In this document: piece by piece, positions 1,481 to 56,856 of the stretch
Numbering within the stretch: the stretch's first letter is position 1
Layout of the letters: the number at the start of each line of letters is the position of its first letter
From: Candidatus Geocrenenecus dongiae
GTDB taxonomy: Archaea; Thermoproteota; Nitrososphaeria_A; Caldarchaeales; Wolframiiraptoraceae
DNA length: 64,000 bases
Assembly (NCBI GenBank): GCA_023267855.1
Contig: JALNLN010000007.1
Coordinates: 1 to 64,000, forward strand
Direction: 5' to 3'
Notes under the pieces: model-generated
What the model saw: only the letters and a program-made list of their open reading frames with translations
Told to the model about the DNA's origin: nothing
Databases searched by the model: none
Translations under genes and position numbers: made by a program

Positions 1481-1513
1481 GTCACGGGAAAATCAGAGAC
1501 TTCAATCATATGT

Positions 1514-10160: not shown

Positions 10161-10216
10161 TCAATAATCTTACATAGTAGCTTTTTCTCATAAATTTATC
10201 TCTTAGAATCTAGGTT

Positions 10217-12264: not shown

Positions 12265-13236
12265 ATGTCGGTTGAGACTCGTAGAGGAGATGTGAGGATA
12301 TCTCTTATAAAGCTTAGGTTGTCTATGATAGGTGTTTGGGCGATAATAACATCTCTAGCAACACTCATACTTATCGTCGTACTATCAATTTTAGGAATAC
12401 CGTACTTTGGTTTATATGGAATACTCGGTTTTGTGATCTTCTTCCACTTCTTCCAGTGGCTGATCGGACCATACATTATAAATGCTGTTTACAGAGTTAG
12501 AGAACTTAAGCTAGATGAATATCCATGGCTTCATGAAATCGTTGAGAGGCTCTCTAGAAATAGCGGTATGGATAAACCTCCTAAATTGATGTTAGCTGAG
12601 ATAGATATTCCTAATGCTTTTGCTTATGGTAGTCCACTTACCGGCAACATGGTTGCTGTCACAAGAGGGTTGCTGAGAACATTAGATAGAGATGAGATCG
12701 AAGCTGTAATTGGACACGAGCTTGGACACCTAAAACACAAAGACGTAGTCGTAATGATGATGATAAGCATTATACCTGCGTTGATATACTACCTAGGATA
12801 CACATTATATATCTCTGGATGGGTTGGCGATAGTAGAAGGAACAATACAGCTTTAGCAGTATTAATGGGGCTTGGTTTAATGGTGTTGAGCTTCATCTTC
12901 AATCTCTTCGTCTTCTACATGAGTAGGCTTAGAGAATACTATTCAGATGCTCATTCAGCTATGACTGCTAGGAATGGTGCTAGAAATCTGCAAAGAGCAC
13001 TTGTAAGGATAATGGCAGCTTCTGGAAGAATAAGTAGAAAGATTAGAGGAGAATATGAACAGTTTAAAGCATTCTTCATCTCAGACCCAGAAGTCACAAT
13101 AAAAACATATGATAGAGATGTAGATAGATTGATAGATGAATTGAAGAACCAGAAACCAAGCATATTCGAAGAACTATTCAGCACCCATCCACATCCAGCT
13201 AAAAGACTAAGATTCCTAGATCAGTTCATAACCTAA
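12265..13236 (+). CDS. htpX: HtpX-like M48 zinc metalloprotease
   Basis: IEAVIGHELGHLKHKD (HEXXH), TMs, LREYYSDAHSA, FSTHPHPAKRLRFL. Confidence 0.93.
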   Translation: MSVETRRGDVRISLIKLRLSMIGVWAIITSLATLILIVVLSILGIPYFGLYGILGFVIFFHFFQWLIGPYIINAVYRVRELKLDEYPWLHEIVERLSRNSGMDKPPKLMLAEIDIPNAFAYGSPLTGNMVAVTRGLLRTLDRDEIEAVIGHELGHLKHKDVVVMMMISIIPALIYYLGYTLYISGWVGDSRRNNTALAVLMGLGLMVLSFIFNLFVFYMSRLREYYSDAHSAMTARNGARNLQRALVRIMAASGRISRKIRGEYEQFKAFFISDPEVTIKTYDRDVDRLIDELKNQKPSIFEELFSTHPHPAKRLRFLDQFIT

Positions 13237-38040: not shown

Positions 38041-39410
38041 TTCTCCAACACCTCTCTTAGAGATTTAACATAATGATCTATGTCTTCTTTAGAATGTACT
38101 TCTGTTGTACAAGTTAAGATGCTTTCTCCAAGTTCCTTAAACCATTTTCCAACACATATTCCAGCCATAATACCTTTCTCCATCATTTCTAAAATTACTT
38201 TTGAAGAATTCTTGCCCTTCACCCTATATGTAAATTCTTTGAAATGTATCGTCTTGAATAATGGAGCTTCTACACCATCTATCCTAGATAACTGTTCCAT
38301 CATGTATTTTGTTCTAGCGAGTATCTGTTCTCCAAGCTTCTTAAACCCATTCTTACCTAGTAGTGAGAGGTAGATTGCAGTAGCTATAGCGCAGAGAGCT
38401 TGATTAGTACAGATGTTACTCGTAGCTTTCTCTCTCTTTATATGTTGTTCTCTTGCTTGTAAGATCATTGTGAAAGCTCTTTCACCTTTAATAGTGCTGG
38501 TCATGCCTATCAATCTACCTGGAAGTTGATGGATTAACTTGATATCCATTCTACACCCCATAATGCCTAGAAGAGGACCACCGAAGTTCATCGGCAATCC
38601 GAGTGGCTGTCCTTCTCCAACAACTATATCTGCTCCAAGTTTTCCCGGAGATTGGAATATTCCTAGAATTGTTGGATCAACACCAATAATAAATAAAGCT
38701 CCATGATCATGCGCTATCTCACCAGCCTTCTTAATATTTAACGGTATGAAGCCTAGGTATGATGGATACTCTACGTAGACTGCAGCTACATCTTCCCCAA
38801 TCTTCTCTTCTAGATCACCTATATCTATCCTACCATCATTAATGTTTTGAGCATATTCTTCTAGTTTTATCTTAGATGGTTCAGTATAGGTTTCAGCTAT
38901 CTCTAATCTTTCTGGAGATATGTAGTGGGGGTAGAGTATCTTATTTCTGCCAGTTACTCTTTTAGCCATTCTGAAAGCTTCTCCGAGAGCTGTACCCCAA
39001 TCATACATAGATGCATTAACAACTTCTACGTCGAGTAGTTCTGCCATTAGGCTTTGGTATTCGAATAAAGCTTGTAGTACTCCTTGAGAAACTTCTGGCT
39101 GGTAGGGGGTGTACGAAGAATAAAACTCACCCCTCTTTAAGAGTTCTCTAACTATTGATGGTACTACGTGAGGCCAAACCCCACCTCCGATAAACAATCT
39201 TCCATAAAATAGCACTCTATTCTTACTGAGAATATTCTTAATATGGGTTCTTACTTCCCATTCAGAAAGAGGTTTGGAATACTTAGAACTCTTCTTCAAG
39301 AAGTATCTTGATGGAATATCTTCAAACAACTTGTCAATTGAATCTAACCCCATCTCTTGTAGCATCAACTTTACTTCTTCTTCTGTTAAACCAATATACG
39401 GATGAATCAT
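38037..39410 (-). CDS. gcvPA: Glycine dehydrogenase subunit 1
   Basis: YSSYTPYQPEVSQGVLQALFEYQSLMAELL, NASMYDWGTALGEA, GEGQPLGLPMNFGGPLLGI. Confidence 0.96.
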   Translation of the reverse strand: MIHPYIGLTEEEVKLMLQEMGLDSIDKLFEDIPSRYFLKKSSKYSKPLSEWEVRTHIKNILSKNRVLFYGRLFIGGGVWPHVVPSIVRELLKRGEFYSSYTPYQPEVSQGVLQALFEYQSLMAELLDVEVVNASMYDWGTALGEAFRMAKRVTGRNKILYPHYISPERLEIAETYTEPSKIKLEEYAQNINDGRIDIGDLEEKIGEDVAAVYVEYPSYLGFIPLNIKKAGEIAHDHGALFIIGVDPTILGIFQSPGKLGADIVVGEGQPLGLPMNFGGPLLGIMGCRMDIKLIHQLPGRLIGMTSTIKGERAFTMILQAREQHIKREKATSNICTNQALCAIATAIYLSLLGKNGFKKLGEQILARTKYMMEQLSRIDGVEAPLFKTIHFKEFTYRVKGKNSSKVILEMMEKGIMAGICVGKWFKELGESILTCTTEVHSKEDIDHYVKSLREVLEK

Positions 39411-39495
39411 ACTAAATTAATAACTTAATAAAACTGTATTATTACTTTTCCTATTCTCACACAATGTCCAGGTTTAGTCTTTGGCAGATATCTAA

Positions 39496-40245
39496 ATGTT
39501 AAGGTTTATTTCTATGATGATTATTGGAGAAGGCATGATAAGTTATCCTTTGATAATTCTAAACTTTAAAGTTTACAGAGAATCTATTGGGAAGAATGCT
39601 GTAAGATTGGCTAAGTACGCTGAAGAAGTTTCTAGAGAACTCGGTATCTCTATTGCTGTGGCCCCTGCTTTTACGGATTTGAAGATGGTTGTTGATTCTG
39701 TTAGTATACCTGTTCTTTCCCAACATGTTGATCCTTATCCTCCCGGCAGCTGGACAGGATCTATAGTTGTAGAGATGTTGAGAGAAGTAGGTGTAGTAGG
39801 TTCTATCGTAAACCATTCTGAGAAGAGGTTGATCTTAGCAGATATACCAGTAGTGTTGAGTAGGTTGAGAGAGCATGGATTAATATCAGTACTCTGTACA
39901 GATACTGTTGAGACTACTAAAGCTGGAGCAACACTGTCTCCAGATATAATAGCTATAGAACCACCAGAACTAATAGGGACAGGCATATCTGTATCTAAAG
40001 CTAAACCAGAAGTAGTCACTAAAGCTGTTGAGATTGTTAAAGAAGTAAACCCTCATGTACATGTACTTTGTGGAGCAGGGATATCTTTAGGAGAAGATGT
40101 TAGGAGAGCTATAGAACTGGGTGCGGAAGGAGTTCTCTTAGCCAGCGCATATGTTAAAGCTAAAGATCCAAAAGAACTCCTCAAATCTATGGCTGAAGAT
40201 GCCTTAAAAGCTTGGGAAAGAAGAAAACATCATCTGAATTTATAG
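39496..40245 (+). CDS. tpiA: Triosephosphate isomerase, archaeal type
   Basis: PLIILNFKVYRESIG, LSQHVDPYPPGSWTGSIVVEMLREVGVVGSIVNHSEKR, IAIEPPELIGTGISVSKAKPEVV, LCGAGISLGEDVRRAIELGAEGVLLASAYVKAKDP. Confidence 0.96.
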   Translation: MLRFISMMIIGEGMISYPLIILNFKVYRESIGKNAVRLAKYAEEVSRELGISIAVAPAFTDLKMVVDSVSIPVLSQHVDPYPPGSWTGSIVVEMLREVGVVGSIVNHSEKRLILADIPVVLSRLREHGLISVLCTDTVETTKAGATLSPDIIAIEPPELIGTGISVSKAKPEVVTKAVEIVKEVNPHVHVLCGAGISLGEDVRRAIELGAEGVLLASAYVKAKDPKELLKSMAEDALKAWERRKHHLNL

Positions 40246-40257
40246 CATACTATTACT

Positions 40258-40839
40258 CTATAGTTTTAATCCCAGTCTAAAAGCTTCTATCGCTTTTTCA
40301 GCTTTTGCCCCTAGAACTATCTTTATTGCTTCTTCAATCTTTTCTATAGGCAGCACTCTTTCTATACTTATTAGTTTACCTAGGAGAAGAATGTTGGCAG
40401 ACATTCTGGCATTAATTTTTTCAGCTTCTCTTCTAGCTTCTACAATATGTAGCCTACTTGTTTTATTCTTTAATATCTCTAATAATTTTTCAACTTCTGG
40501 ATATTTTTCTATTCCAACTAGATTATAGATTGTTGGTATTGGTTCTGGGTCTAGTACTATAATCGTTTGTGGACCTATGTAGCGGAGAGCTCTAACTGTT
40601 TCCAGAGGCTCCATACCTATGAGAGCATTAGCTGAACCATTCTTCACCAACGGGCTCCATACATTTCTACCTATTTTTACATAGCTCTGAACACTGCCAC
40701 CTCTCTGAGACATTCCTAGGGTTTCACCTATCTTTACGCTTAAACCTGAAGAGATAGATGCATGGGCAATGATTCTAGATAATGTTAATCCTCCTTGTCC
40801 TCCTACTCCAGCGATAACTATAGAATATTCTTTAATCAT
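40258..40839 (-). CDS. iorB: Indolepyruvate ferredoxin oxidoreductase beta subunit
   Basis: IAGVGGQGGLTLSRIIAHA, KIGETLGMSQRGGSVQSYVKIG. Confidence 0.93.
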   Translation of the reverse strand: MIKEYSIVIAGVGGQGGLTLSRIIAHASISSGLSVKIGETLGMSQRGGSVQSYVKIGRNVWSPLVKNGSANALIGMEPLETVRALRYIGPQTIIVLDPEPIPTIYNLVGIEKYPEVEKLLEILKNKTSRLHIVEARREAEKINARMSANILLLGKLISIERVLPIEKIEEAIKIVLGAKAEKAIEAFRLGLKL

Positions 40840-40843
40840 AAGC

Positions 40844-42685
40844 TTACCTCTCCTTAATCTTTTCCACGATTATAGCGTCATATGGGCAGACCTGCATGCA
40901 TAGTGTACATCCATTACAATTGTCTTCAATTATTTCAACTCTATTTTCAGTAGGTTTCAGAGCGGGACATCCAGTAAGTTTTATACATGCAAGACAGTTG
41001 GTACATTTTTCTTTATCTACTATACAAATCTGCGTTAAACCTTTCCTTCTAGTTAAGATTGCACATAAACCTCTAGATACTATTACTTTTACTCCAGGCT
41101 CTCTAAGAAACTTTCTTACTTTTTCTGCAACTTCTCTATAATTGTATGCATTAACTATGGCTAGCTTCTCTACGCCGAGTCCTTCTAATACCGATTCTAT
41201 CTTTAATGCTTTCAAGATTTTTCCACTCTGACTTAGATTATTTTCAGGTGTTGTTTGATGTCCAGTCATGGCTACTGTAGAGTTATCCATGATTACAACT
41301 AGTATATCCACGTTTTTGTGTAATGCTTCTATTAGAGATGTTATTCCTGAGTGGAAAAATGTACTATCACCGATAACAGCTATCACAGGCTTATGGTATC
41401 CAGCTACCTTTAAGCCCATGGCCATAGATATACTTGCACCCATACTATGTTCTGTCCATATACTTTCGAATGGAGGATTGAGGCCGAGAGCATAGCAACC
41501 TATGTCTCCCATTAGGGGTATCTCACCCCACTTGTACCCAGCTTTAGATACGCCAAGCCTTAAACCCATGTATGTTCCAATATGTGGGCAACCAGGACAG
41601 AAAGGAGGAGGGCGTCTCGGAAGTGGATAAGTGGGCTCAGAGTTTAAGATATTCTTCTTGCCTAAGATCCAAGACTCTACGTCATCTAATGTTAATTCAC
41701 CTGCTTTTGGGAATATTTCTTCTCTTCCTTCTATCTTTACATCTAATTCTAGTTCATGGGCTAAGGCTTTCAACTTTAACTCAATGTATGGATCTATCTC
41801 TTCTACGACGATAACTTTCTCAACGTTTTCCAAGAATTTTCTAAGAAGCTTCTTAGGTAATGGGTGGATTAGACCGAGTTTTAGTAACTTATAATCTTGT
41901 AAAAGATTATTCTTTTCCAAGGTTTCTAGAACGTAGAGATATGATGGACCTGAACAGACTATGCCGATCTTTCCAGATCCTAAGATCTTATTTAACTCTA
42001 GGTTTTCTGAAACTTCTTCTACTTTAGCTAAAGTCTCTAAGACTTCTAAGTGTCTCTCTCTATTCCAATACATTACAGCTCTTAGATATCTCTTAGGATT
42101 CTTAGAGAAATTTGGAGCATACTTGTACTCGTTAAATTCTCCAACTTCTACATCACTTACAGTATGGTTTACTCTTGTAGTTGTTCTAAGTATTACTGGG
42201 AGCTTCAATTTCTCACTAAGCTCATAACCTTTAATCGTAAACTCGTATGCTTCCTGAGGATCTGAAGGCTCGATTACTGGGAGTTTCGCTAACTCTCCAT
42301 ACCATCTACTATCTTGCTCTGTTTGGGTAGTATGGGGACCTGGATCATCTGCTACAAGTACAAGCATTCCAGCCTCAACACCAGAGTAAGCTGAAGATAA
42401 TAAGGGGTCTGAGGCAACGTTTAATCCAGGAGCTTTCATGGTAACTAGAGAACGTGCACCAGCTAGAGACGCACCTAAACATATTTCAAATGCTACTCTC
42501 TCATTTACAGCCCATTCCACATAAGGTATCTTAACATGTCCAGACTTAACCATCTCGAGCAACGTTTCTATAACCTCACTACTAGGGGTACCTGGATAAC
42601 CGGAGACAACAGCTACACCAACGGTAAGAGCACCGTAAGCTATGGCCTCATTACCCATCAAAATAAGTCTCCTAGAATTATGCAT
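40844..42685 (-). CDS. iorA: Indolepyruvate ferredoxin oxidoreductase alpha subunit
   Basis: LMGNEAIAYGALTVGVAVVSGYPGTPSSEV, VADDPGPHTTQTEQDSRWYG, PPFCPGCPHIGTY, TPP motif region, C-terminal 2x[4Fe-4S]. Confidence 0.95.
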   Translation of the reverse strand: MHNSRRLILMGNEAIAYGALTVGVAVVSGYPGTPSSEVIETLLEMVKSGHVKIPYVEWAVNERVAFEICLGASLAGARSLVTMKAPGLNVASDPLLSSAYSGVEAGMLVLVADDPGPHTTQTEQDSRWYGELAKLPVIEPSDPQEAYEFTIKGYELSEKLKLPVILRTTTRVNHTVSDVEVGEFNEYKYAPNFSKNPKRYLRAVMYWNRERHLEVLETLAKVEEVSENLELNKILGSGKIGIVCSGPSYLYVLETLEKNNLLQDYKLLKLGLIHPLPKKLLRKFLENVEKVIVVEEIDPYIELKLKALAHELELDVKIEGREEIFPKAGELTLDDVESWILGKKNILNSEPTYPLPRRPPPFCPGCPHIGTYMGLRLGVSKAGYKWGEIPLMGDIGCYALGLNPPFESIWTEHSMGASISMAMGLKVAGYHKPVIAVIGDSTFFHSGITSLIEALHKNVDILVVIMDNSTVAMTGHQTTPENNLSQSGKILKALKIESVLEGLGVEKLAIVNAYNYREVAEKVRKFLREPGVKVIVSRGLCAILTRRKGLTQICIVDKEKCTNCLACIKLTGCPALKPTENRVEIIEDNCNGCTLCMQVCPYDAIIVEKIKER

Positions 42686-42837
42686 ACCTCAAACTATTCT
42701 TCAACAATCCTCTTAATAAATTGGAATCCACTACAAAGAATATCAGCTCAATTTTCTTTCTTAAAATATTGAAATTTTGCTTCTAGAAATTAATTAAGAA
42801 TATGCATATTGTAAAAACTCGGAGAATGTTTTAGCGG

Positions 42838-43494
42838 CTACACAATCTCTAGTCCAGGTATTTTTAATCTTTCTTCAAGTTTCTTAAAGAAAAATGTAGC
42901 TACTGTTGCCATAAAAGCATAGATTAACGCTGTCGTAGAGAAGATTTCTATTGGTCTGAATTGTAGAGAATTGAAATGTTTAGCTGTTGCAAATATCTCT
43001 TGTACACCTATTATGTATGCTAGAGATGAATACAATATAAGGTATATTATCTCGTTTGAAATACCTGGTAAAGCTCTTCTAAACGCTTGTGGAAGAATTA
43101 TATGTACTACTTCTTGTAGTTTCGTCATTCCGAGAGCTTGTGCTGCAAGTGATTGACCTACATCTATAGATTGTATAGCTGCTCTAACATATTCTGATTG
43201 ATAAGCTCCACTACACATTATAAACGCTATTACAGCTGACCAGAACGGGTCAAAGTATAAGCCTATTCTAGGTAAAGCAAAAAACACTATTAACAATGTA
43301 ACCACTAACGGCAGACCTCTCAATAAAGCAACAAACCCAGCGGCTATAAGTGATACTACTTTATTTCCGTAAACTCTGGCGGTGGCCAGAGCTAGACCGA
43401 GCAGTATGCTGAGAGGTATAGATAGCGCTAAGAGCTCGACTGTCATGATCCAGCCTCTCATCAAATATGCTATGAATTCTTCCCAGAAACTCAT
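42838..43494 (-). CDS. Polar amino-acid ABC transporter permease
   Basis: HisM/GlnP family TM pattern; AQALGMTKLQEVVHIILPQAFRRALPG EAA loop. Confidence 0.93.
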   Translation of the reverse strand: MSFWEEFIAYLMRGWIMTVELLALSIPLSILLGLALATARVYGNKVVSLIAAGFVALLRGLPLVVTLLIVFFALPRIGLYFDPFWSAVIAFIMCSGAYQSEYVRAAIQSIDVGQSLAAQALGMTKLQEVVHIILPQAFRRALPGISNEIIYLILYSSLAYIIGVQEIFATAKHFNSLQFRPIEIFSTTALIYAFMATVATFFFKKLEERLKIPGLEIV

Positions 43495-44273
43495 CTTTTC
43501 TCCCTTCCATAAAGTTCCTGTATTCTTTCAAAGAACTTTTTAGCTATTTCAGTCTTAGGATTGTGGATAACTTCTTCAGGTGGTCCACGTTCAATTATCT
43601 TACCATCATACATAAACAACATTTCATCTCCCACAGATTGTGCAAACCCCATCTCATGTGTTACGACTATACTTGTAACTTTTTCTCTAGCAAGAGCTTT
43701 CATAACTTCAAGTACTTCTCCTATTAACTGTGGATCCAGAGCAGAGGTAGGCTCATCGTACAAAATTATCGATGGGTTCATAGCGAGCGCTCTTGCTATA
43801 GCTACTCTCTGCTTCTGTCCTCCCGATAATTCTGCAGGATATTTGTGAGCGTGTTCTTCTAAACCTACTTTTCTTAATACCTCCATAGCTCTCTTGTAGG
43901 CTTCTTCTCTTTTCATTTTCTTAACAACTTCCAGACCTATGCTAACATTCCTGAGAGCTGTTAGATGATTGAAAAGATTAAATTCTTGAAAAACGAAACC
44001 TATCTTCTGTCTAACTTTATTTATGTTGATAGATCGGGTTGTTAATTCTTCTCCTTCAAGCCAGATCATTCCTTTATCAGGTTTTGTTAAAAGATTTATA
44101 CATCTTAAGAGAGTACTCTTACCAGAACCTGAAGGTCCACATATTATCTTTGTTTCACCTCTACGAACTTCGAAGGAAATCCCCTTCAAAACAATTACAT
44201 TATTATAACTTTTGTATAGATCTTCAACTTTGAGAACGATTTCATCTTCAACCATAGACTCTACATCCTCCAT
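43491..44273 (-). CDS. Polar amino-acid ABC transporter ATPase
   Basis: GPSGSGKSTLLRCIN, LSGGQKQRVAIARALAMNPSIILYDEPTSALDPQ. Confidence 0.96.
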   Translation of the reverse strand: MEDVESMVEDEIVLKVEDLYKSYNNVIVLKGISFEVRRGETKIICGPSGSGKSTLLRCINLLTKPDKGMIWLEGEELTTRSININKVRQKIGFVFQEFNLFNHLTALRNVSIGLEVVKKMKREEAYKRAMEVLRKVGLEEHAHKYPAELSGGQKQRVAIARALAMNPSIILYDEPTSALDPQLIGEVLEVMKALAREKVTSIVVTHEMGFAQSVGDEMLFMYDGKIIERGPPEEVIHNPKTEIAKKFFERIQELYGREKR

Positions 44274-44923
44274 ATTAATCCAGGTATCTTCAACTTATCA
44301 TATATGGTGTTTAGTATTTTAGTTCCACTATATGTTAAAACTATGAAGAGTGCTCCTGCTATGAAGTACGGTATAAGAGGTTCTAGCGTAGCCATTACCA
44401 CGTATCTGGTTCTAGTCAAAATCTCCATAACGCCTAGCGTAAAACATATTGCTGAGTCTTTTAATATTATTGCATACTCGTTCGCCCATCCTGGTATTGA
44501 GATTCTTAAAGCCTGCGGTAGTACTATATGATATATTGCTCTCATCTTACTCATACCGAGAGTTCTAGCAGCTATGTACTGTCCTTCACCTACAGATGTA
44601 ATCGCACCACGAAATATCTGAGATTGATATGCTCCACTCCTTATACCGAGTACTAGAATACTACAGGTAAGTGGATCTAGTTTAAAACCTAGAGCTGGAA
44701 AGATGCCCCAGTAAAATAAGAAGAGTAGAACTAGTAGTGGTACGCTTCTAAAAAACCATGCATAAACTTCTACCATAATCTTTAAGAAACGATGTCCGTA
44801 GACCTGAGCTATTGCAGATGGCAAACCTACTATGAATCCTATTAATAATCCTCCACCTACAAGTCCTAGAGTCCACAGAACACCTTCAAGAATATATGGA
44901 ACATAGTCTACTACTGAAACCAT
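44261..44923 (-). CDS. Polar amino-acid ABC transporter permease
   Basis: ARTLGMSKMRAIYHIVLPQALRISIPGWANEY EAA loop, multi-TM. Confidence 0.94.
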   Translation of the reverse strand: MVSVVDYVPYILEGVLWTLGLVGGGLLIGFIVGLPSAIAQVYGHRFLKIMVEVYAWFFRSVPLLVLLFLFYWGIFPALGFKLDPLTCSILVLGIRSGAYQSQIFRGAITSVGEGQYIAARTLGMSKMRAIYHIVLPQALRISIPGWANEYAIILKDSAICFTLGVMEILTRTRYVVMATLEPLIPYFIAGALFIVLTYSGTKILNTIYDKLKIPGLIWRM

Positions 44924-45067
44924 GCATCTTCAAGAAGATGAAACAGAAAGCCTACTATAAAGTTATTTCTTATTCTTAAGCCCGGAATATTAAAAATTAA
45001 AATTTTTCTATTTCTGATAAATATTTTCTTAAAAGTTTATCTATACGTTTTCTCTAAAATCTTAGTA

Positions 45068-45976
45068 ATGAGTAGGAAGTCAGTTAATAAAAGTTTTCAG
45101 AGTAGAAGATTTTCTAGAAGAGAAGCTGTAAGTACTGCTGCTAAAGTTGCTGGTTCTGCTGTTGCTGGATTAGTTATTGGTGGTGTAGCAGGATATGTGC
45201 TTAAACCAGCGGCTCCGGCTGAAGTAAAAACGACAACCATAGTTACTGAGAAGAAAGGAAAATTCACAGATCCACCTCCACCTGGAACAAAAATTGTAAT
45301 AATACATGGGTTTGATGCAGCCTACCCGCCTTTCACAGAAGTTACACCAACAGGTGAAGTACAGGGATTTGATATAGATGTCATAAAATGGATAGCTAAT
45401 AAGTATGGCTGGGAGGTTGTTCCAAAACCATGGGATTGGGCTACGATAATTACAGCTCTACTTAATGGAGATATAGATATTATAGCTTCAGGAATGACCC
45501 ATACAGCTGCTAGAGCAGAGAAAGTATGGTACTCGATACCCTACTACGTCTACTATCATCATCTACTAACTCTGAAAGAAGATACTAGAAGTATGGAGGA
45601 AATACTAAACTCTGGAGAATATATTTCATGCCAACTTGGAGCTACAAGTGATGAATGGGCTGAGAAACTCTTAAAACAAGGATACAAATTCAAGAAATTA
45701 GCATTAGATTCTTATGCACTCGCATTTCAAGCAGTATTGGAAGGAAGAGCCATAGCAGTAATAAGTGATAGTGCTTTTACAGAACCATACTTTAAAGAGA
45801 AGCCAGAGGTAGGACAGAGATTTAGAGAAGTTGGTAGACTAGGAGGAATAAAGACATATGCAATAGCCACCAGACCAGAAGATTATTGGTTAAGAAATAT
45901 GATAAACCATGCGCTTACAGAATTAATGGATAGCCCATTATGGAATGAACTACTAACTAAATGGAACCTAAGATAG
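45068..45976 (+). CDS. Amino-acid ABC transporter substrate-binding protein with Tat-like signal
   Basis: SRRFSRREAVSTAAKVAGSAVAGLVIGG signal; GEVQGFDIDVIKWIANKYGWEV, DIIASGMTHTAARAEKVWYSIPY. Confidence 0.92.
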   Translation: MSRKSVNKSFQSRRFSRREAVSTAAKVAGSAVAGLVIGGVAGYVLKPAAPAEVKTTTIVTEKKGKFTDPPPPGTKIVIIHGFDAAYPPFTEVTPTGEVQGFDIDVIKWIANKYGWEVVPKPWDWATIITALLNGDIDIIASGMTHTAARAEKVWYSIPYYVYYHHLLTLKEDTRSMEEILNSGEYISCQLGATSDEWAEKLLKQGYKFKKLALDSYALAFQAVLEGRAIAVISDSAFTEPYFKEKPEVGQRFREVGRLGGIKTYAIATRPEDYWLRNMINHALTELMDSPLWNELLTKWNLR

Positions 45977-47351: not shown

Positions 47352-48632
47352 TTATCTGCATGGATGTGATTTTTCAGATTCTGTTTCAGACATTAGTGTG
47401 TATTCGTATTCTTCTTCTCTCGCATATGCTTCTGTTGCTATATCTATTGCTCCTGCTCTTAGTAGCATGGCTTTTCTAACTCTGTTCTTAGCTATCTCTA
47501 AGGCTATTTCACGTGGCCACTTACCTGTCTCAAATGTTTTCATTAAGACTTGGCGTACATTGCTAGTGATTTTATAGTGTATGTAGTCGAATGCTTGTTT
47601 TACTGTGCCTCCAATGTATTCGATGTATGATCCGATAACTCCACCTGCATTAACTAGAAAATCTGGCATAACCCAGACACCGTTCTCTTTAAGAATCTTC
47701 TCTGCAGTTGGGGTAGTCGGTATATTTGCAGCTTCAATAACTAGTTTAACACCAGAATCTATCAAATGCTTAACGGTTTCTTCATTTATCGTGAAGGAGC
47801 CGGCTGCAGGTATAAAGATATCTGCAGGTATATGGTATATCTTATCTCTTGGCTCTTTACTGTAACCTTCGAGGTCTACGAGTTCAGGGTACTTTACTTT
47901 TCTTCTCAGATTCCTCAACTCTTTCATCATTTTAGGTATGTCAAGCCCTTTCTCATCATATATGCATGCAGAAATATCGTTTATAGCAACTATCTTGTAA
48001 CCCATCTCATCTAGGAACTTAGCTGTATAGCTTCCAACATTCCCAAATCCTTGTATAGCTATCCTAACATTTTTCGGATCTATTTTGAGAACATTGAATT
48101 TTGTCAAAAGTTTCAAAGTCGTGTCTAATGCTATTGCAACACCATACCCTGTTGTTCCAAGTTCATGTGGTATCCCACCTAGCTCGAGAGGCTTACCAGT
48201 ACATGCTTTCATATCTCCAATCTCGTGTGCAAATACAGCCATATCCATCTCATTCGTTCCCATATCTGTTGCAGCTACATATTGTAAAGGTACGTATGGT
48301 TTTATTGCTTTAGCATAAGCTTTGATCCAAGCAACTCTATCAACTTTTGTTGGATCTCCAATGATGCCGCCTTTTGCACCACCGAAAGGTAGACCTGCGA
48401 GAGCACATTTCCAAGTCATAGCTCTAGCCAGCAAGAATACTTCATAAGGAGTTACATTTGGCTGGAATCTTATACCTCCCTTCCCAGGACCCATAGCTGT
48501 ATTATCGATTACGAGGATGCCACGCATCTTTACGTCTGGATCGTATGTTAAGATTATCTTTTCCGGACCCCATTCATCTGCTACACTCCAAAAATCTTGA
48601 GTTTCAAGTTTAATCATAGATGTGTGACTCAT
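47352..48632 (-). CDS. gdhA: Glutamate dehydrogenase
   Basis: GPGKGGIRFQPNVTPYEVFLLARAMTWKCALAGLPFGGAKGGI, AATDMGTNEMDMAVFAHEIG, IQGFGNVGSYTAKFLDEMG. Confidence 0.97.
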   Translation of the reverse strand: MSHTSMIKLETQDFWSVADEWGPEKIILTYDPDVKMRGILVIDNTAMGPGKGGIRFQPNVTPYEVFLLARAMTWKCALAGLPFGGAKGGIIGDPTKVDRVAWIKAYAKAIKPYVPLQYVAATDMGTNEMDMAVFAHEIGDMKACTGKPLELGGIPHELGTTGYGVAIALDTTLKLLTKFNVLKIDPKNVRIAIQGFGNVGSYTAKFLDEMGYKIVAINDISACIYDEKGLDIPKMMKELRNLRRKVKYPELVDLEGYSKEPRDKIYHIPADIFIPAAGSFTINEETVKHLIDSGVKLVIEAANIPTTPTAEKILKENGVWVMPDFLVNAGGVIGSYIEYIGGTVKQAFDYIHYKITSNVRQVLMKTFETGKWPREIALEIAKNRVRKAMLLRAGAIDIATEAYAREEEYEYTLMSETESEKSHPCR

Positions 48633-48716: not shown

Positions 48717-50234
48717 TTAGTAGCCTATTAATTTTACACCTGTGATTGTTGCAACATTAATGTTTAGAGCTCTTAGATCTTCTTTTGATAATTCTCTAAT
48801 ATCATTATGACCTGAAAGCATGGTCAACATCTTGACTTCTTCTGTCATTGCTTTAAGGAAGTTTACTAATCTGTCAGCTGCTTTTTCAGGTTGGAGTCTT
48901 CTTCTTAGTTCTGGGTCTTGTGACGTGATACCGTAGGGACATTTACCTTTCAAACACTGTGTACATACTCTGCATCCCATAGCTATTAAAGCTGCGGAGG
49001 CTATTGCTACACAATCCGCTCCTAGTGCTATAGCTTTTACAACGTCTGCTCCATTGCGTATCCCACCCATAACTATTAATTTAACTTCTCCACGTAATCC
49101 TACATCTTCTAGTGCTTTAACTGCAGGCGGTATGCATCCTATTGTTGGGATTCCCGCATGCTGGATAGATATCTCTGGAGATGTTCCCGTACCTCCTTGT
49201 GAACCATCAATTGCAATTGCATCTGCACCTGCTTTCGCCGCTATCTCTACATCTTTGTAAACTCTTCCAGGTCCAAGTTTAACTATTATTGGTTTTTCGT
49301 AATTGGTTATGTTTCTCAGTAGGTCGATCTGTTTCTTTAGATCTTTCTCTACATCTTGTATATCGTAATGTCTAGCTGGCGATAGACAATCTGTGCCTAC
49401 AGGTATACCTCTTATCTTAGCTATTTCTTCTGTAACCTTCTCTCCGAGTAGATGTCCACCCATGCCTGGTTTCGCTCCCTGACCTATCTTAATCTCAACA
49501 GCATCTGATCTCTCTAGATAATCTATTGAAACTCCCCATCTACCACTAGCCCACTGTACTATCAGATATCCTCCAGGTTCATACGTCTTCCTACCACTCT
49601 TAAATTCTTCTTCATTCTTAAAGCCGTGTGCTAGATAGTATTCTTCAGGGAAAGATCCACCCTCACCTGTACACACTGCTGTCCCAAGTCTTGCAGTCGC
49701 TATAGCTAGAGCTATCTTAGCTTCTCTCGAGATTGCACCATAAGACATCGCTGCAAATATTATGGGTATCTTAAGCTTCAGAGGTTTATCAACTCTCCCT
49801 TCTCCAATCACAACCTCTACATTACATTCTTCTCTATACTTATCTTTAGGTTCAGGTGGGTAGAGTTGGGCTGGAACTACGACTAGATCATCGAAGTGTG
49901 GTAGTGAACGCATCGCACCGTACCCTCTCAGAATATACTTACCTGTTTGAGCTTTGTAATGTATTTCATCTACTGTCTGGAATGTCCATAATCCTTTTGT
50001 AAATGTTTCAGGCTCAGCAGGTCTGATATGGATCACATTGTTTGGACAGTATTCTATGCAGATTCTACATCCTACACATGCTAGATCATTCATAACGTAT
50101 GCTCTACCTACTTCATCTACAGCGAAGACAGAGTTTGGGCAAACTTCTACACATGTTGAACATTTCCAAGGCATCTTCCAGCTAATACATCTTTCTTTAT
50201 CCATTGTAACACAAAATGCACCTGAGATAGGCAT
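48717..50234 (-). CDS. Glutamate synthase-like FMN domain protein with N-terminal ferredoxin domain
   Basis: Two 4Fe-4S motifs (CSTCVEVCPN, CVGCRICIEYCPN), IKIGQGAKPGMGGHLLGEKV, IAIDGSQGGTGTSPE, ALGADCVAIASAALIAMGCRVCTQCLKGKCPYGI. Confidence 0.93.
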   Translation of the reverse strand: MPISGAFCVTMDKERCISWKMPWKCSTCVEVCPNSVFAVDEVGRAYVMNDLACVGCRICIEYCPNNVIHIRPAEPETFTKGLWTFQTVDEIHYKAQTGKYILRGYGAMRSLPHFDDLVVVPAQLYPPEPKDKYREECNVEVVIGEGRVDKPLKLKIPIIFAAMSYGAISREAKIALAIATARLGTAVCTGEGGSFPEEYYLAHGFKNEEEFKSGRKTYEPGGYLIVQWASGRWGVSIDYLERSDAVEIKIGQGAKPGMGGHLLGEKVTEEIAKIRGIPVGTDCLSPARHYDIQDVEKDLKKQIDLLRNITNYEKPIIVKLGPGRVYKDVEIAAKAGADAIAIDGSQGGTGTSPEISIQHAGIPTIGCIPPAVKALEDVGLRGEVKLIVMGGIRNGADVVKAIALGADCVAIASAALIAMGCRVCTQCLKGKCPYGITSQDPELRRRLQPEKAADRLVNFLKAMTEEVKMLTMLSGHNDIRELSKEDLRALNINVATITGVKLIGY

Positions 50235-50240
50235 GTTTAC

Positions 50241-50918
50241 TCACCTCCCGTAGAATGGTCTAAGTGATATAGGAGTAAGCTTCTTCATATTTCTAGGATC
50301 AGCATCTACTCTAAAAGCATCAAAGTAGTTCTTTAATCTCCTTATGTCTTCGGTTCCGATAGGTGTTTCTTTACAATTGTGGCCCAGACTCTTGTATTTC
50401 CCATCTATGAATATGTTGCCACGTATGATCCAGTCTCCAACTTTCTCACCTACGTCTCCTAAAATTATGATTTCACCTCCAACCATATATGTTCCTACAT
50501 TATCTCCACAATCTCCTGTTACTATGATTACTGCACCTTTGTTTAAAGCTCCTAAGAAGTCTCCAGAATCTCCATCTACGAATATTATTCCTCCGTAACA
50601 ATATACTCCACAACCATATCCTACATCTCCATTCACAATTACAACACCCTTAGTCATATTATCTGCTAAGAATCTTCCCGCATCTCCATTTATTGTTATT
50701 GATGCACCATCATTCAAAGCCGCCGTATAGTCTCCCGTATCACTATTCACTATTATATTTCCTTGTTTTAATCCAGATGCGAGACCGTGGAGATGGGAAG
50801 CATTATCTATCAAGATTTTGGATGCACCATTCTGTAATGCTTTCCTAATTTCAGAATTCACAAATCTTAAATCTTTATTACTTGCATCTATCCTATACTC
50901 CACGTTCTTCACCTCCAA
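50241..50918 (-). CDS. GXGXG (glutamate synthase C-terminal domain-like) protein
   Basis: Repeated NGDAGRFLADNM / NGDVGYGCGVYCYGG / DGDSGDFLGALNKG / GDCGDNVGTYMVGG beta-helix pattern. Confidence 0.93.
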   Translation of the reverse strand: MEVKNVEYRIDASNKDLRFVNSEIRKALQNGASKILIDNASHLHGLASGLKQGNIIVNSDTGDYTAALNDGASITINGDAGRFLADNMTKGVVIVNGDVGYGCGVYCYGGIIFVDGDSGDFLGALNKGAVIIVTGDCGDNVGTYMVGGEIIILGDVGEKVGDWIIRGNIFIDGKYKSLGHNCKETPIGTEDIRRLKNYFDAFRVDADPRNMKKLTPISLRPFYGR

Positions 50919-52018
50919 GCTATCTTTAACTTCTCTCTAACTTCATCTCTACTCTTTTTACCGAGTAGGCTTTCTAGCATAAGTGATGTTAGAGAATCTA
51001 TTTCTTGTGCACGTTTTCTCCTCTCCTTATCTATAACAAGCTTCTGTATTTCTTCTAAGCTGATGGATGTTTCTGAAGGTTTCAGAGTTTTTTCCATGAA
51101 AGCGTATTTTAGACTTCTCTCCCCTAAAGGTGTTCTCACGATGACCATAGTTCCTTTTTCTTCTAAACCTATTGTTCCAACAGATATGTCTGCGCACTCA
51201 GCTGTAAAATCTGTACAACGTGCACATCCCTGCTTCATGTATCTTCGTATTTCTGGTAGTGGGATACCCTTCATCAACCCTTCCTGCATAACGATTCTAA
51301 GAACCTTATTCTTAATGTCCATTATCAACCTATTTAGTTCATATGGATTAATATCAAATCTATCCACAATCTCTTGTACTAGTTGTTGAGTATATGCTCC
51401 TTCGCAGAAAACCCCTATCATCAAGTATATTGAGTTTTTGTAAACTTTGAGTTTATTGTTATTAGATGTACGTATGGCTTTTACTGCTTGTGCTATACAT
51501 GGGGGGCCGACCACTGCTATCTTCTTTAATCCCTTCTTATATATTGCATCATTTAAAACCTCTAAGATGGGATGCCATAGATACTGGTATCCGCTCGTAG
51601 TTAGTATTTCTTCTTCTCTTGTAACTATCTTTGGTATTGGTTTGAATGTTTCCCTATCTATATCCCATGTAACTGCTCCATCTACTAGTTTTCTTCTTAT
51701 CGAAGCTATTAGGAGAGCATTCACAATACTGGTATCTGGAAGTCTTGAAGTTACTGTAACTGTATGTAGTATTTGTCCTTTCTCCCATTCTCTTAGTCTA
51801 GGACAACTATCTTCACAAGGTTTTTCACAAAAGAAGCATGTATCTACAACTATGTGTGATGATCCTATACGTTTCTCTCTAACTTCTAGTTCAGGATGAT
51901 CTCCATCTCTTGGAGATCTTAGAATATTCTTTGAACAAGTTGATATACATGCACCACATTCACAACATCTACCAACGTACCATACATCTTTCTTTAATCT
52001 ATAAACCATGTTCCTCAC
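50909..52018 (-). CDS. FrhB/FdhB-like coenzyme F420-type Fe-S flavoprotein subunit
   Basis: CCECGACISTC N-terminal cluster; VVGPPCIAQAVKAIR; GVFCEGAYTQQL; GCARCTDFTAECADISVGTIG. Confidence 0.85.
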   Translation of the reverse strand: MRNMVYRLKKDVWYVGRCCECGACISTCSKNILRSPRDGDHPELEVREKRIGSSHIVVDTCFFCEKPCEDSCPRLREWEKGQILHTVTVTSRLPDTSIVNALLIASIRRKLVDGAVTWDIDRETFKPIPKIVTREEEILTTSGYQYLWHPILEVLNDAIYKKGLKKIAVVGPPCIAQAVKAIRTSNNNKLKVYKNSIYLMIGVFCEGAYTQQLVQEIVDRFDINPYELNRLIMDIKNKVLRIVMQEGLMKGIPLPEIRRYMKQGCARCTDFTAECADISVGTIGLEEKGTMVIVRTPLGERSLKYAFMEKTLKPSETSISLEEIQKLVIDKERRKRAQEIDSLTSLMLESLLGKKSRDEVREKLKIAWR

Positions 52019-52901
52019 CCCAAATAGTTTTCAAAGTTTCTAAGAATTTATCTATACCAGTCTTGTTGAGGTGTAGACCTACTTCTTCAGGTTTAAGCCC
52101 TATGGAGAGTCCGAGAAGCTGTGGATAAAGGATTACGGGTATATCGTATCTTTCTCCACTAATCCTAGAAGCTTCATTCTGCATAAAGTCGAATTGGAGT
52201 TGGCATGAAGGACATATAACTACAATACAATCAGCTTCAGAATCTTTAGCACTTTTCAATTTCGCACATGTTAATGACAGGCTTAAATCTCTATCTATAG
52301 CAAGTATTGGAGAACCACAGCACCATAGTTTTAACATCCAGTATATACTTTTAGCTTCAGTAACTTCTATCAATTCATCGAGGATTTTGGGATTCTCAGG
52401 ATTATCAGACTTTAATTTATTTGAGGGTCTCAAGATGTGGCAACCGTAATGTGCAGCAACTCTTAAACCTTTTAGAGAACGTTTTATCTTACCCCTAATA
52501 TTCTTAAGTCCAAGATCTTCGTAAAGAACATGTATGAGATGCTTAACTTCCACTTCTCCACTATATGTAAGACCATCTAACTTCTTCAATATCGTGTTGA
52601 CTTCTTCTTTAAAACTAGTATTGTTATGGAATGTTTCCTGAGCTTCTTTAAGAGATTCGTAACATCCTGGGCAGGTGACAAGTAAGTTTAGATTCTTATT
52701 CTCTGCTAATGCGAGTATTCTTGTACTCATTACTAGATTTGTTTTAGCGTCTACTGAACGTGTAATTACTGTACCACAGCATCCTGCATCTTCTAGATCT
52801 ACAAGTTCTACTCCAAGTTCTTTTAGTACATTTCGTACTGCTAGATCATATTGATTTAATCTTGAAGGTACCACACATCCCATATAGTATGCATACCTCA
52901 T
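51999..52901 (-). CDS. hdrB: HdrB-like heterodisulfide reductase subunit B
   Basis: YYMGCVVPSRLNQYDLA, two CCG-type motifs (AGCCGTVI...CPGC; HYGCH...WCCGSP...CPSCQ). Confidence 0.93.
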   Translation of the reverse strand: MRYAYYMGCVVPSRLNQYDLAVRNVLKELGVELVDLEDAGCCGTVITRSVDAKTNLVMSTRILALAENKNLNLLVTCPGCYESLKEAQETFHNNTSFKEEVNTILKKLDGLTYSGEVEVKHLIHVLYEDLGLKNIRGKIKRSLKGLRVAAHYGCHILRPSNKLKSDNPENPKILDELIEVTEAKSIYWMLKLWCCGSPILAIDRDLSLSLTCAKLKSAKDSEADCIVVICPSCQLQFDFMQNEASRISGERYDIPVILYPQLLGLSIGLKPEEVGLHLNKTGIDKFLETLKTIWGEEHGL

Positions 52902-53422
52902 TTCACAGTACCTCCAATAATCTTTAAGAATCCTACTTCTTCCAGCATCTTCCTAATCTTCTCAGCATCTACTGGAGGTGCTTTCGGAAGCCCGAGTTTC
53001 TCCCTCTCTTTTTCTCGTCCAGCACTGATTTTAATAATTCTACCATCTTTAACTATATTCATACAGATCTCTACCAACTCTCTCGGTACATATCCAAGTT
53101 TTGATGCAGTATTTCTTAAAGTGAAGAGTATGTTCGCTGGATCAACTTCCTGAGGGCATCTCTCAGAACATGTGAAACAAGTTGTACACAACCATATTTC
53201 TCTAGAACTTATCAATTGTTCTACTAAACCTAGATTGACCATCTTGACTATTCTGTGAGGTTTGATTATGTATCCTAGAGGGCATCCAGAGGTACATATT
53301 CCACACTGAACGCATTTAGATGGATCACCGCTCACTATATTGTTTAGAATTTCAGATCTCAGAGCCGGATCCATTTTAATATTTTTTAGAGAGATTGTTT
53401 GTACACTCATTTCTACATACAC
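52898..53422 (-). CDS. hdrC: HdrC-like heterodisulfide reductase subunit C
   Basis: CVQCGICTSGCPLG and CTTCFTCSERCPQEVDP 4Fe-4S motifs. Confidence 0.93.
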   Translation of the reverse strand: MYVEMSVQTISLKNIKMDPALRSEILNNIVSGDPSKCVQCGICTSGCPLGYIIKPHRIVKMVNLGLVEQLISSREIWLCTTCFTCSERCPQEVDPANILFTLRNTASKLGYVPRELVEICMNIVKDGRIIKISAGREKEREKLGLPKAPPVDAEKIRKMLEEVGFLKIIGGTVK

Positions 53423-56400
53423 CTCCTCAAGGGGTTGTAACCAACCTCTTCAATCTTATGTGTAAATTCCTTGATGATCTTACTTAACCTAAATCCTTCA
53501 CCTGCTGAAGCCCATTCTATCCTAACCCTTTCCGGATTCAAGCCTAATGCACCAATTAATTCTCTGAGTCTAGTTACTCTATCTTCTGCTCTAAGATTTC
53601 CTGAAAGATAGTGGCAGTCTCCTGGATGACATCCAACAATAAGTATACCATCAGCACCTAGAAGTAGAGCGTATAGTATGTAGAGGGGGTCAACTCTAGC
53701 ACTACACATTACTCTAATTATCTCTACTGTTGGGGGATACTCGTAGCGGCTTATCCCAGCCATGTCTGCAGCAGCGTAACCACACCAATTACAGAAGAAA
53801 GCTATTATCTTCGGCCTATCTTTAGGAGATGGTTTTCTGAAAGCTGCTTCTATCATAGCTAGTAATTGGTCATTTCTAAATTGGTGTACTGTTATTGCTT
53901 TCGAGGGGCACTCAACGGCACATGAGCCACATCCTTTGCATAGAAATGGATTAATCTTCGCTACCAAGATATTCTCAGGTCTAGTTTCTAGCTGGATAGC
54001 TTTGAATTCACATACATTTAAGCATCTTCCACAACCTGTACAGGTTAGTGGGTTGACTTCAGCGACGATAGGTTCTGTAACAATCTTACCATGCATGAGT
54101 AATGTTAATGCACGTGAAGCTGAAGCTAATCCTTGAAATATATTCTCCTCTAATCTTTGAGGACCGTAAGCCAGTCCACATAGATAAATCCCATTAACTG
54201 AGAAATCTACAGGTCTAAGTTTTGGATGAGCTTCTATAAAGAATCCATAACTATTTAGTGGAACTTTCAATCTAGAAGAAATTTCATGGTTTTCTAATGA
54301 AGGTAGGATAGGTGTAGCCAAGACTATTGTATTGACAGGTATTTCAAACACAACGTTTAGTGTGGTATCATAGGTGTTTAAGAAAAGCTCGCCATCTTTA
54401 CTGTAGACTTCTGGCGGTCTACTTAAAGAATATCTTAGAAAGTGTATTCCTGATTTACGTGCTTCCCGATAAATCTTCTCCCCATTAACTGGTAGCCTCA
54501 TATCTCTGTATAGAACATAGACATTGGACTCTGGATTCTTACGTTTAAAGTTAAGTGCTTCTAAGAGTACTTCTTCGCAACATATAGCAGAACAGTACAT
54601 ACGTCCCTCTATCTCTCTAGCACCAGTACATAAGATGAAAGCTATGTTCCCACCACCAGCACCATTAAGCTTCTTCCTGAATTCTGTTAAAGTGTAGATT
54701 CTATTATCTTCTCCATAACCATAAATTCTCAGTGGTTTAAATTCTCCTCCACCTGAAGCTACAATTATTGTTCCAACATTAATCTCTTTGATTAAACCAT
54801 TCTTACTTAGTTTAATGTTGAAAGCCCCGGCAGATCCTTTAACATCTTCTACCTTTGTTGATAAATGTATTTCCACGTTATCATGTTGTTTAAGAGATTT
54901 GATAATGTTTAGAACCCACTCTGCAACTCTACCGTCATGTTTATAGAATTCGAGATCACTTCCAAGATTTTCCCCCCGCTCAACAACATACACTTTAAAA
55001 CCATTATCAGCTATAGTTTTAGCGGCCACTAACCCACTGACTGTCCCACCAATTATAAGTGTAGATGGAGTAACAGGTGTTTCTGCTCTCTCTAATGGTT
55101 CAAGAAGTCTAGCTTTCGCAATAGCCATTTCAATAAGTTCTCTTGCTTTCTCGGTTGCTTCGTGAGGATATTTTCTATGAACCCAAGAAACATGTTCTCT
55201 AATATTCACCATCTCGAATAGGTATGGGTTCAGGCCTGCCTCCTCACAAACATCTCTAAACAATTTTTCATGAGTACTTGGAGTACATGAAGCTACTACA
55301 ACCCTATTTATTCTATACTTCTTGATAGCTTCCTTAATACGTTCTGTCCCATCCTTAGAACATGCAAACATTAAATCTTCACAGTAAACAACGTCTGGAA
55401 TTCTTGAAACATCTTCCACCACCTTCTTAACATCTACAACAGCAGCTATATTCAATCCACAGTGACATACGAATACCCCTATTCTAGGTTCTTGAACAAC
55501 CTCACCAACCCATATACTACTCCTAGCTTCACTTTTCTGTACCGGCATTTCTACATATTTCTTTAAACTTAAGATTCTCTCTGCTGCTTTAACGGAAGCT
55601 GCCAGAGCTTGCATTACACTATGAGAGATGTCTTTAGGGTTTTGGCACGCTCCACAAACATACACTCCAGGAACATTAGTATCAATAGATGTAATATCTG
55701 TAGATTTGAAGAATCCATGATCATCTAACTCTAAACCAATTATCTTAGCAAGTTTTAGAGAGTCTTCTCGTGGGACTACTGCTGGGCAAAGTACAACTAG
55801 ATCAACTTCTACTGTTTTTACTTCTTCAGAAGATAAGTCAACGTATCTTATAATCAACTTATTCGTCTTCTCATCCCACATAACTTCGCTTGGTAAACTC
55901 TTAACATATTTGATGCCGAATTCCTCAACAGCTCTTCTTATAAGTTCTTCATGACCTTTACCAACAGCATTCAAATCATTATAGAACACTATCACATCTA
56001 TTCTTGGATCATGTTCTTTTGTAACTATAGCTTGTTTCGTAGCATACATACAACATATCTGTGAACAGTAATCTTTCAGCTTCTTATTTCTCGACCCCAC
56101 ACACTGAATTATTGCAATTTTTTCAGGGCTCTTCTTGTCTGAAGGCCTAATGATTTCTCCTCCTGTAGGTCCAGCAGCATTCATGAGACGCTCATACTGT
56201 ATTGATGTTAAGACGTTTGGAAATCTACCGTAGCCATACTGTGGAAGAATAGTTGGATCTAGGAGGGAGAATCCTGTGGCCACGATTATAGAGTATACAT
56301 CCAGATCAACTTCTTCTATTTTTTGTTCAAAATTGATGGCGCCTGAGGGGCAGATTTTTTCACATACTCTACATACACCTTTCGTAAAGTATAGGCAGTG

Positions 56401-56856
56401 TTCTTGATCTATAACTGCGATCTTTGGAACAGCTTGGGGGAAAGGTATGTAGATTGCTTTTCTAAAACCTATGCTTTCTTCAAATTCGCTTGGAACCTTA
56501 ACAGGACACTTCTCCTCACATCTACGACATCCCGTACATTTTACTTCATCTACATATCTTGGCTTCCTAATGATCTTCACATTAAATCTCGATCCATCTT
56601 GAGAACGCTGTACTTCTTTTACCTCCGAATATGTGAATAGATTTATATTAGGATGTCTGGAAACTTCAACCATTTTTGGTCCAAGAATACATATGGAACA
56701 ATCGAGCGTAGGGAAAGTTTTATCAAGCTTAGCCATGTAACCTCCTATCGAAGGTTCTTTCTCAACTAGATACACTTTAAATCCTTTATCTGCAAGTTCT
56801 AAAGATGCTGTGATACCAGCTACACCACCGCCAATTACGAGAACATCACCTTCCAA
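53413..56856 (-). CDS. hdrA: Tandem HdrA-HdrA-MvhD fusion (1147 aa)
   Basis: First FAD motif VIGGGVAGITASLELADKGFKVYLVEKEPSIGG; second HdrA unit from GVFVCHCGLNIA; CTGCGRCLNVC and CKGCGSCAVEC; MvhD-like IIAFFCNWCGYAAADMAG...GCHPGDCHYLSGN. Confidence 0.93.
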   Translation of the reverse strand: MEGDVLVIGGGVAGITASLELADKGFKVYLVEKEPSIGGYMAKLDKTFPTLDCSICILGPKMVEVSRHPNINLFTYSEVKEVQRSQDGSRFNVKIIRKPRYVDEVKCTGCRRCEEKCPVKVPSEFEESIGFRKAIYIPFPQAVPKIAVIDQEHCLYFTKGVCRVCEKICPSGAINFEQKIEEVDLDVYSIIVATGFSLLDPTILPQYGYGRFPNVLTSIQYERLMNAAGPTGGEIIRPSDKKSPEKIAIIQCVGSRNKKLKDYCSQICCMYATKQAIVTKEHDPRIDVIVFYNDLNAVGKGHEELIRRAVEEFGIKYVKSLPSEVMWDEKTNKLIIRYVDLSSEEVKTVEVDLVVLCPAVVPREDSLKLAKIIGLELDDHGFFKSTDITSIDTNVPGVYVCGACQNPKDISHSVMQALAASVKAAERILSLKKYVEMPVQKSEARSSIWVGEVVQEPRIGVFVCHCGLNIAAVVDVKKVVEDVSRIPDVVYCEDLMFACSKDGTERIKEAIKKYRINRVVVASCTPSTHEKLFRDVCEEAGLNPYLFEMVNIREHVSWVHRKYPHEATEKARELIEMAIAKARLLEPLERAETPVTPSTLIIGGTVSGLVAAKTIADNGFKVYVVERGENLGSDLEFYKHDGRVAEWVLNIIKSLKQHDNVEIHLSTKVEDVKGSAGAFNIKLSKNGLIKEINVGTIIVASGGGEFKPLRIYGYGEDNRIYTLTEFRKKLNGAGGGNIAFILCTGAREIEGRMYCSAICCEEVLLEALNFKRKNPESNVYVLYRDMRLPVNGEKIYREARKSGIHFLRYSLSRPPEVYSKDGELFLNTYDTTLNVVFEIPVNTIVLATPILPSLENHEISSRLKVPLNSYGFFIEAHPKLRPVDFSVNGIYLCGLAYGPQRLEENIFQGLASASRALTLLMHGKIVTEPIVAEVNPLTCTGCGRCLNVCEFKAIQLETRPENILVAKINPFLCKGCGSCAVECPSKAITVHQFRNDQLLAMIEAAFRKPSPKDRPKIIAFFCNWCGYAAADMAGISRYEYPPTVEIIRVMCSARVDPLYILYALLLGADGILIVGCHPGDCHYLSGNLRAEDRVTRLRELIGALGLNPERVRIEWASAGEGFRLSKIIKEFTHKIEEVGYNPLRRCM

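Follow-up and report, generated by a model that had tools for sequence, protein, structure and literature searches.

Bifurcating enzymes have been described with disulfides, CoA thioesters, pyridine nucleotides, H2, formate, quinones and similar compounds as partners, and no amino-acid couple was found among them in the portions of the literature available. FrhB-type flavoproteins paired with glutamate synthase (GltS) subunits in methanogens and ANME were earlier proposed to be F420-dependent glutamate synthases (FGltS). HdrABC-type complexes (HdrABC-MvhAGD, HdrABC-Fdh, HdrA2B2C2 and MetFV-Hdr) are described as combining a HdrA that bears the bifurcating FAD and an inserted ferredoxin with HdrBC, MvhD and an FrhB/FdhB-type partner; type II HdrA clusters with FdhB contain two fused HdrA halves with complementary losses of cysteines and N-domain (PMC12054007, PMC9012536). 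The Bfu family, including Bam-Bfu, is built on NuoE/NuoF/NuoG-N-like BfuCBA subunits with a C-terminal ferredoxin domain in BfuB, and the Bam complexes contain a HdrA-type subunit; the main text of the corresponding paper does not mention glutamate (PMC9304861). CODH-zeta and FwdI, the F420-reductase adaptors of ethane-oxidising archaea, use two N-terminal [4Fe-4S] clusters and an FrhB domain to bridge an oxidoreductase (8RIU, 8RJA; PMC11493965). A published legend mentions a Desulfobacterium protein, 'HdrL', in which heterodisulfide reductase and glutamate synthase are fused. The passages returned by a main-text term search of literature on HdrA diversity, Culexarchaeia, ANME and Bfu contained no description of a HdrA+FrhB+GltS cluster, nor was literature found that links Baldrarchaeota with Hdr and glutamate. 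We take HdrL to be a GltD-type (NADPH-domain) fusion.

The window, i.e. the whole stretch of 64,000 nucleotides analysed here, stems from an archaeal metagenome-assembled genome (MAG; 1.44 Mb, 39 contigs, 98% complete) and contains an operon in which such elements are joined (Table 1). Like ferredoxin- or NAD(P)H-dependent GOGAT, it encodes an FMN domain, the 3Fe-4S cysteines and a GXGXG domain; unlike GOGAT, it lacks a class-II glutaminase, the glutamate that couples to the glutaminase is relaxed, and electrons would come from Hdr, Bfu or FrhB subunits. With FGltS it shares the pairing of an FrhB-type flavoprotein with GltS subunits, and the FrhB of FGltS(I) also has two extra N-terminal [4Fe-4S] clusters. 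However, FGltS is proposed to use glutamine and F420H2, whereas the operon has no glutaminase and its family adds HdrA-MvhD plus either HdrBC or BfuABC. Its partner module is GltS and GXGXG where HdrABC-type complexes have a hydrogenase, formate dehydrogenase, molybdopterin protein or MetFV, and GltS with HdrA in place of the oxidoreductases bridged by CODH-zeta and FwdI. To the Bfu family, which the relatives in Chloroflexota resemble, GltS/FrhB would add a novel third-substrate module, and the archaeal form in the window lacks Bfu subunits.

Table 1 Features of the operon and its downstream neighbour in the window.
Feature	Coordinates	Strand	Description
hdrA	53413..56856	-	permuted double HdrA with MvhD/FlpD fused to it; proposed to be the bifurcating subunit (Pfam/NCBIfam, residue comparison)
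hdrC	52898..53422	-	two [4Fe-4S] motifs; 8 Cys kept in 8/8; likely start ATG 53410
hdrB	51999..52901	-	two CCG (non-cubane cluster) motifs; 10 Cys kept in 7-8 of 8
frhB-like flavoprotein	50909..52018	-	N-terminus with two additional [4Fe-4S] motifs; likely start ATG 52009
gxgxg	50241..50918	-	beta-helix subunit, GltB3/FwdC-like; likely start GTG 50903
gltS	48717..50234	-	glutamate synthase FMN domain, 3Fe-4S Cys, N-terminal 2x[4Fe-4S]; without glutaminase domain
glutamate dehydrogenase (GDH), divergent, ELFV family	47352..48632	-	possibly separate transcript

The first-pass annotation of this DNA had described six Hdr and GltS genes on one strand, which Pfam and NCBIfam matches confirmed: HdrA with a C-terminal FlpD/MvhD, HdrC, HdrB, FrhB_FdhB N and C, GXGXG, and Glu_synthase with a 4Fe-4S dicluster. 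The genes are tightly packed, neighbours overlapping or being separated by a few bases. Shine-Dalgarno-like sites precede the refined starts of hdrC, frhB and gxgxg as well as the called starts of hdrB (52901) and gltS (50234); upstream of the TTG start of hdrA at 56856 lies GGAGGTGA. The GDH gene noted earlier as lying 85 bp downstream on the same strand is indeed there, with a recomputed gap of 84 bp. As no obvious Shine-Dalgarno site was found upstream of it in the window sequence, GDH may be transcribed separately from the operon. Elsewhere in the window, inspection of positions 35399-45976 by eye revealed genes for glycine cleavage, for a paired indolepyruvate oxidoreductase and for an ABC transporter of amino acids, a gene content that suggests an amino-acid fermenter.

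We then asked how widely this gene set occurs. A first search, within the phylum, returned the operon from two genomes, those of Culexmicrobium profundum and of Bathyarchaeota bin30. Further carriers emerged when genome contigs were scanned with the GltS alignment: Baldrarchaeota, additional Bathyarchaeota, one MAG each of Methanomassiliicoccales and Methanosarcinales, and many Chloroflexota, among them the named strain Longilinea arvoryzae KOME-1. The core of hdrA(MvhD), frhB, gxgxg and gltS is thus present in the window, in seven other archaeal loci and in about 12 Chloroflexota loci, and since these genes are kept together across archaeal phyla and in Chloroflexota, their linkage is not due to chance. 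The usual archaeal order is hdrA-hdrC-hdrB-frhB-gxgxg-gltS, with gxgxg moved upstream of hdrA in L055 and L057 and HdrBC missing from the archaeal locus L061. In the Bathyarchaeota chromosome G470, another frhB-like gene, hdrC and hdrB come after hdrA-frhB-gxgxg-gltS, with GDH genes on both sides. Chloroflexota have the order nuoE-nuoF-nuoG(N)-hdrA-frhB-gxgxg-gltS; one of their loci, L067 (6839-11503), retains only the C-terminal/MvhD part of HdrA, and nuoEFG was not found in its 10 kb flank. GDH adjoins the operon in the window, in G470 (two genes) and in several Chloroflexota loci, downstream in L059, L062, L064 and L066 and upstream of nuoE in L065, L069 and L078. The operon is rare: five of 251 genomes of the Bathyarchaeota class sample matched, one of which (G511) falls outside the GltS clade and has no hdr genes, leaving four of 251; in the Chloroflexota sample, 1 of 301 genomes exceeded 50% identity, namely the centre genome of the sample.

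In the tree, operon-linked GltS proteins formed one clade of 28 rows (support 90/81), in which the window GltS grouped with Baldrarchaeota and Culexarchaeota (99/98), and the pairwise distances of the four core proteins were correlated with one another (r 0.78-0.96). The GltS of L055, the Methanosarcinales MAG, is nearly identical to that of the Bathyarchaeota locus L056, which L116 also matches. L055 was therefore discounted as independent evidence; the near-identity points to one mis-binned contig, likely that of the Methanosarcinales MAG. Among the viral contigs searched, no GltS homologue was found. Some loci showed further peculiarities. Both Baldrarchaeota carry two Lrp/AsnC-like genes divergent to hdrA (by eye). 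In L032 (17499-19568; the same locus as L057), hdrA is preceded by two gxgxg genes and by the gene for a 252-aa protein that matched no Pfam family, and L117 (G470, 819-12443) forms a more extended cluster, with a second FrhB-like gene, HdrC, HdrB, GDH and another HdrA downstream of gltS.

The first-pass annotation had seen no GltB1 in view. This extends to the whole genome, in which the class-II glutaminase family (PF00310, GATase_2) had no match and no standalone GltB1 was found, with 12 of 14 control genomes positive. GATase_2 was likewise not found in 16 of the 18 operon genomes; the exceptions, G308 and G317, possess a second, ordinary GltS beside a GATase or in one frame with it. Fifteen of the 18 encode no strong PF01645 protein besides the operon GltS. 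Outside the operon clade, a GATase-like gene was adjacent to gltS in three of four loci inspected by eye. For the active site we used the residue numbering of ferredoxin-dependent GltS. The equivalents of E903, K966, Q969, K972 and R992 and the three 3Fe-4S cysteines were invariant in the alignment of 28/28 operon GltS. E1013, which in known enzymes connects the synthase and glutaminase sites, is E, K or D in the operon clade vs E in 17/17 GATase-type relatives, and some archaeal members have a one-residue insertion in this region. At the 2-oxoglutarate site, the Q978 position is occupied by His, as also found in ordinary archaeal GltS, and E975 by Met. The five invariant 2-oxoglutarate/FMN-site residues and the cluster cysteines make it unlikely that the operon GltS is a mere electron-transfer module, one of the roles offered for it earlier beside that of an enzyme using ammonia or another substrate.

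Alignment to M. wolfeii HdrA revealed that the window HdrA is permuted: residues 5-382 align to 146-517, 455-604 to 2-151 and 872-1008 to 517-652, giving the order N-half (FAD/TrxR with inserted ferredoxin), N-domain, second TrxR, C-terminal ferredoxin and MvhD. Across the inserted ferredoxin, the C-terminal ferredoxin and MvhD, the cysteines at 108-118, 155-170, 940-984 and 1023-1082 are conserved, and an FlpD match is present. As in the type II clusters, two HdrA halves are fused whose losses of cysteines and N-domain complement each other. In the N-half, E356, K409 and the cluster cysteines C386, C399, C403 and C404 are kept in 8/8 archaeal sequences, which supports the bifurcating character ascribed to the gene set in the first-pass annotation; the roles of E356 and K409 are given in PMC12054007. 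In the C-half, K409 is retained in only one of eight, so that, unlike in HdrABC-type complexes, this TrxR mostly lacks K409 and MvhD is fused. E356, K409 and the cluster cysteines are variable in Chloroflexota HdrA. The NuoF-like protein of Longilinea found its best solved matches, nearly full length, among bifurcating-type enzymes (7T2R, 7Q4V, 8A6T and others; E down to 1e-256 vs 1e-114 for complex I NuoF), and in Chloroflexota the NuoF-like protein keeps its C-terminal ferredoxin cysteines. A NuoE/F/G-like gene (the BfuBC core) was not found in the window operon, and a BfuB with C-terminal ferredoxin occurred only in the Chloroflexota relatives. From these sequence features, a NADH/ferredoxin BfuABC-like module appears to take over bifurcation from a decayed HdrA in Chloroflexota, and archaeal and Chloroflexota operons seem to differ by a swap of the bifurcation engine. 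The complete HdrABC-like module reported earlier is present in the window, and archaeal relatives with HdrBC keep both CCG motifs of HdrB and both [4Fe-4S] motifs of HdrC; HdrBC is optional, being absent from L061 and from beside hdrA in Chloroflexota operons. In L051 (6815-8205), HdrBC are more diverged from the window than the other subunits, as if swapped.

F420 had been considered as a likely carrier, for which we found no support in the window's genome: the marker search detected neither cofD nor cofG, and cofE (contig C13, 73855-74581; L092 ~11800-12580, outside the window) is fragmented, with stops, over three frames. Judged by these markers, F420 biosynthesis is absent or broken there, setting the operon apart from FGltS and the CODH-zeta/FwdI adaptors, and for this genome we rejected F420 as a universal carrier. 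Across the 18 operon genomes, CofE was present in 13 (counting this broken copy), with CofD over the cut-off in seven and CofG in one. Of the FrhB cysteines, 12 recur in 22 or more of 24 sequences. The window FrhB resembles the F420 adaptors of 8RJA/8RIU, chain 8RJA_E being among its best solved matches (E 3e-28). Methanogenesis genes, not in view in the first-pass annotation, were represented by mcrA in our search; it was not found in the window's genome, and 9/9 genomes tested lacked it.

The most economical reading of these sequences is a glutaminase-free, ammonia-dependent and reversible glutamate/2-oxoglutarate module joined to bifurcation machinery. Quite possibly, its product is a soluble complex: the glutaminase-less GltS and GXGXG would act on free ammonia and be coupled to bifurcation or confurcation by HdrA-MvhD or Bfu. 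We infer complex formation, ammonia use, electron path and direction as follows. GltS and GXGXG would catalyze 2-oxoglutarate + NH4+ + 2e- <=> glutamate, exchanging electrons with HdrA-MvhD through the 2x[4Fe-4S] domain of GltS and the FrhB-like flavoprotein, with GltS replacing HdrBC in archaeal operons that lack the latter. The bifurcating site would be the FAD of the HdrA N-half with its inserted ferredoxin domain in archaea, and BfuABC, with NADH and ferredoxin, in Chloroflexota. In one direction, reductive amination would drive ferredoxin reduction; in the other, towards which we lean, glutamate and reduced ferredoxin would be confurcated to a mid-potential carrier (about -0.3 V) during amino-acid fermentation, which would suit amino-acid fermenters. 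That this is a true bifurcating or confurcating glutamate dehydrogenase/synthase, with glutamate/2-oxoglutarate plus ammonia as high-potential partner and HdrA FAD or BfuBC as interchangeable engines on a GltS-FrhB-HdrA(MvhD) core in archaea and bacteria, is a possibility that we put forward with reserve. The glutamate couple, at about -0.13 V, lies near the -140 mV of the heterodisulfide couple and could therefore serve in this role. The heterodisulfide value is taken from PMC9304861, and reported potentials are about -500 mV for ferredoxin and about -280 mV for NADH.

Several observations speak against a glutamate-bifurcating enzyme. In Bfu enzymes as described, electrons pass between the third substrate and each of NAD(H) and ferredoxin; a couple at -0.13 V matches this topology badly unless HdrA/FrhB alter the route. 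The partner of FrhB is unaccounted for where F420 is not made, L067 has only the C-terminal/MvhD part of HdrA and no nuoEFG in its 10 kb flank, and the operon is rare, with genus-mates that lack it. Glutamate bifurcation leaves unexplained the disulfide or other acceptor to which the intact HdrB points, and the exchanges Q978 to His and E975 to Met weaken the case for 2-oxoglutarate specificity. These exchanges, together with the cluster motifs that HdrB retains in 7-8 of 8 archaeal homologues and the relaxed E1013 position, would agree with a GltS that takes a different 2-oxo acid or an imine as substrate, or serves as FMN electron-transfer module, within a Hdr complex that reduces a disulfide via HdrB. 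We consider this quite improbable, as L061 and the Chloroflexota operons dispense with HdrBC, all other checked site residues and the 3Fe-4S cysteines are invariant in 28 sequences, and GDH genes recur beside the operon.

The intact synthase site, the position of the operon GltS as sole strong PF01645 protein in most operon genomes and the precedent of FGltS would also suit an ordinary assimilatory, ammonia-dependent glutamate synthase, to which FrhB, HdrA and Hdr/Bfu merely feed electrons from ferredoxin, NADH or F420H2 without true bifurcation. Yet two different bifurcation modules with conserved residues or architecture exceed what an electron feed needs, and a GDH already adjoins the operon, which renders this explanation unlikely. 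Very unlikely, in our estimate, is that the Hdr and GltS units only share a transcript. HdrBC do diverge on their own (43/52% identity to the window in L051 vs 59/65% in L052, with GltS at 84% in both), so that modules can move, but hdrA(MvhD), frhB, gxgxg and gltS stay joined in archaea and Chloroflexota and their products diverge in a correlated fashion. The gene set hence suggests, as a glutamate-synthase-like enzyme minus its glutamine-using part and joined to bifurcating machinery, that some anaerobes couple glutamate/2-oxoglutarate to ferredoxin-level energy conservation. If so, amino-acid-fermenting anaerobes could link glutamate turnover with the ferredoxin pool and possibly oxidise glutamate along with reduced ferredoxin; both the HdrA and Bfu families would gain a third-substrate class, and bifurcation engines would be naturally swapped on one enzyme core. 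As L. arvoryzae KOME-1 carries the operon, the question is accessible to experiment.

The conservation of gene order across archaeal phyla and Chloroflexota does not extend to the window's own genus, in the other genomes of which the operon was not found. Missing linkage in relatives, which the first-pass annotation had named as grounds for refutation, thus applies inside the genus but not at wider taxonomic range. Two of the genus-mates, G098 and G152, have LutC-LutB-adenosyltransferase-OB-fold gene-GDH-DapDH-like in unbroken order and no operon, and the GDH at this site is only 33-34% identical to the window GDH. This comparison indicates that the operon entered or was exchanged at this site, probably together with its GDH. 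Chimerism of the MAG was considered and is unlikely, as both operon flanks are syntenic with the two genomes; the GC content of the operon is not aberrant. On contig C27 of the window's genome (9638-10750), we observed a GDH 94% identical to the one at the syntenic site of G098, compared to about 50-72% for the genes flanking that site; the C27 gene may be displaced, transferred or located on a foreign contig.
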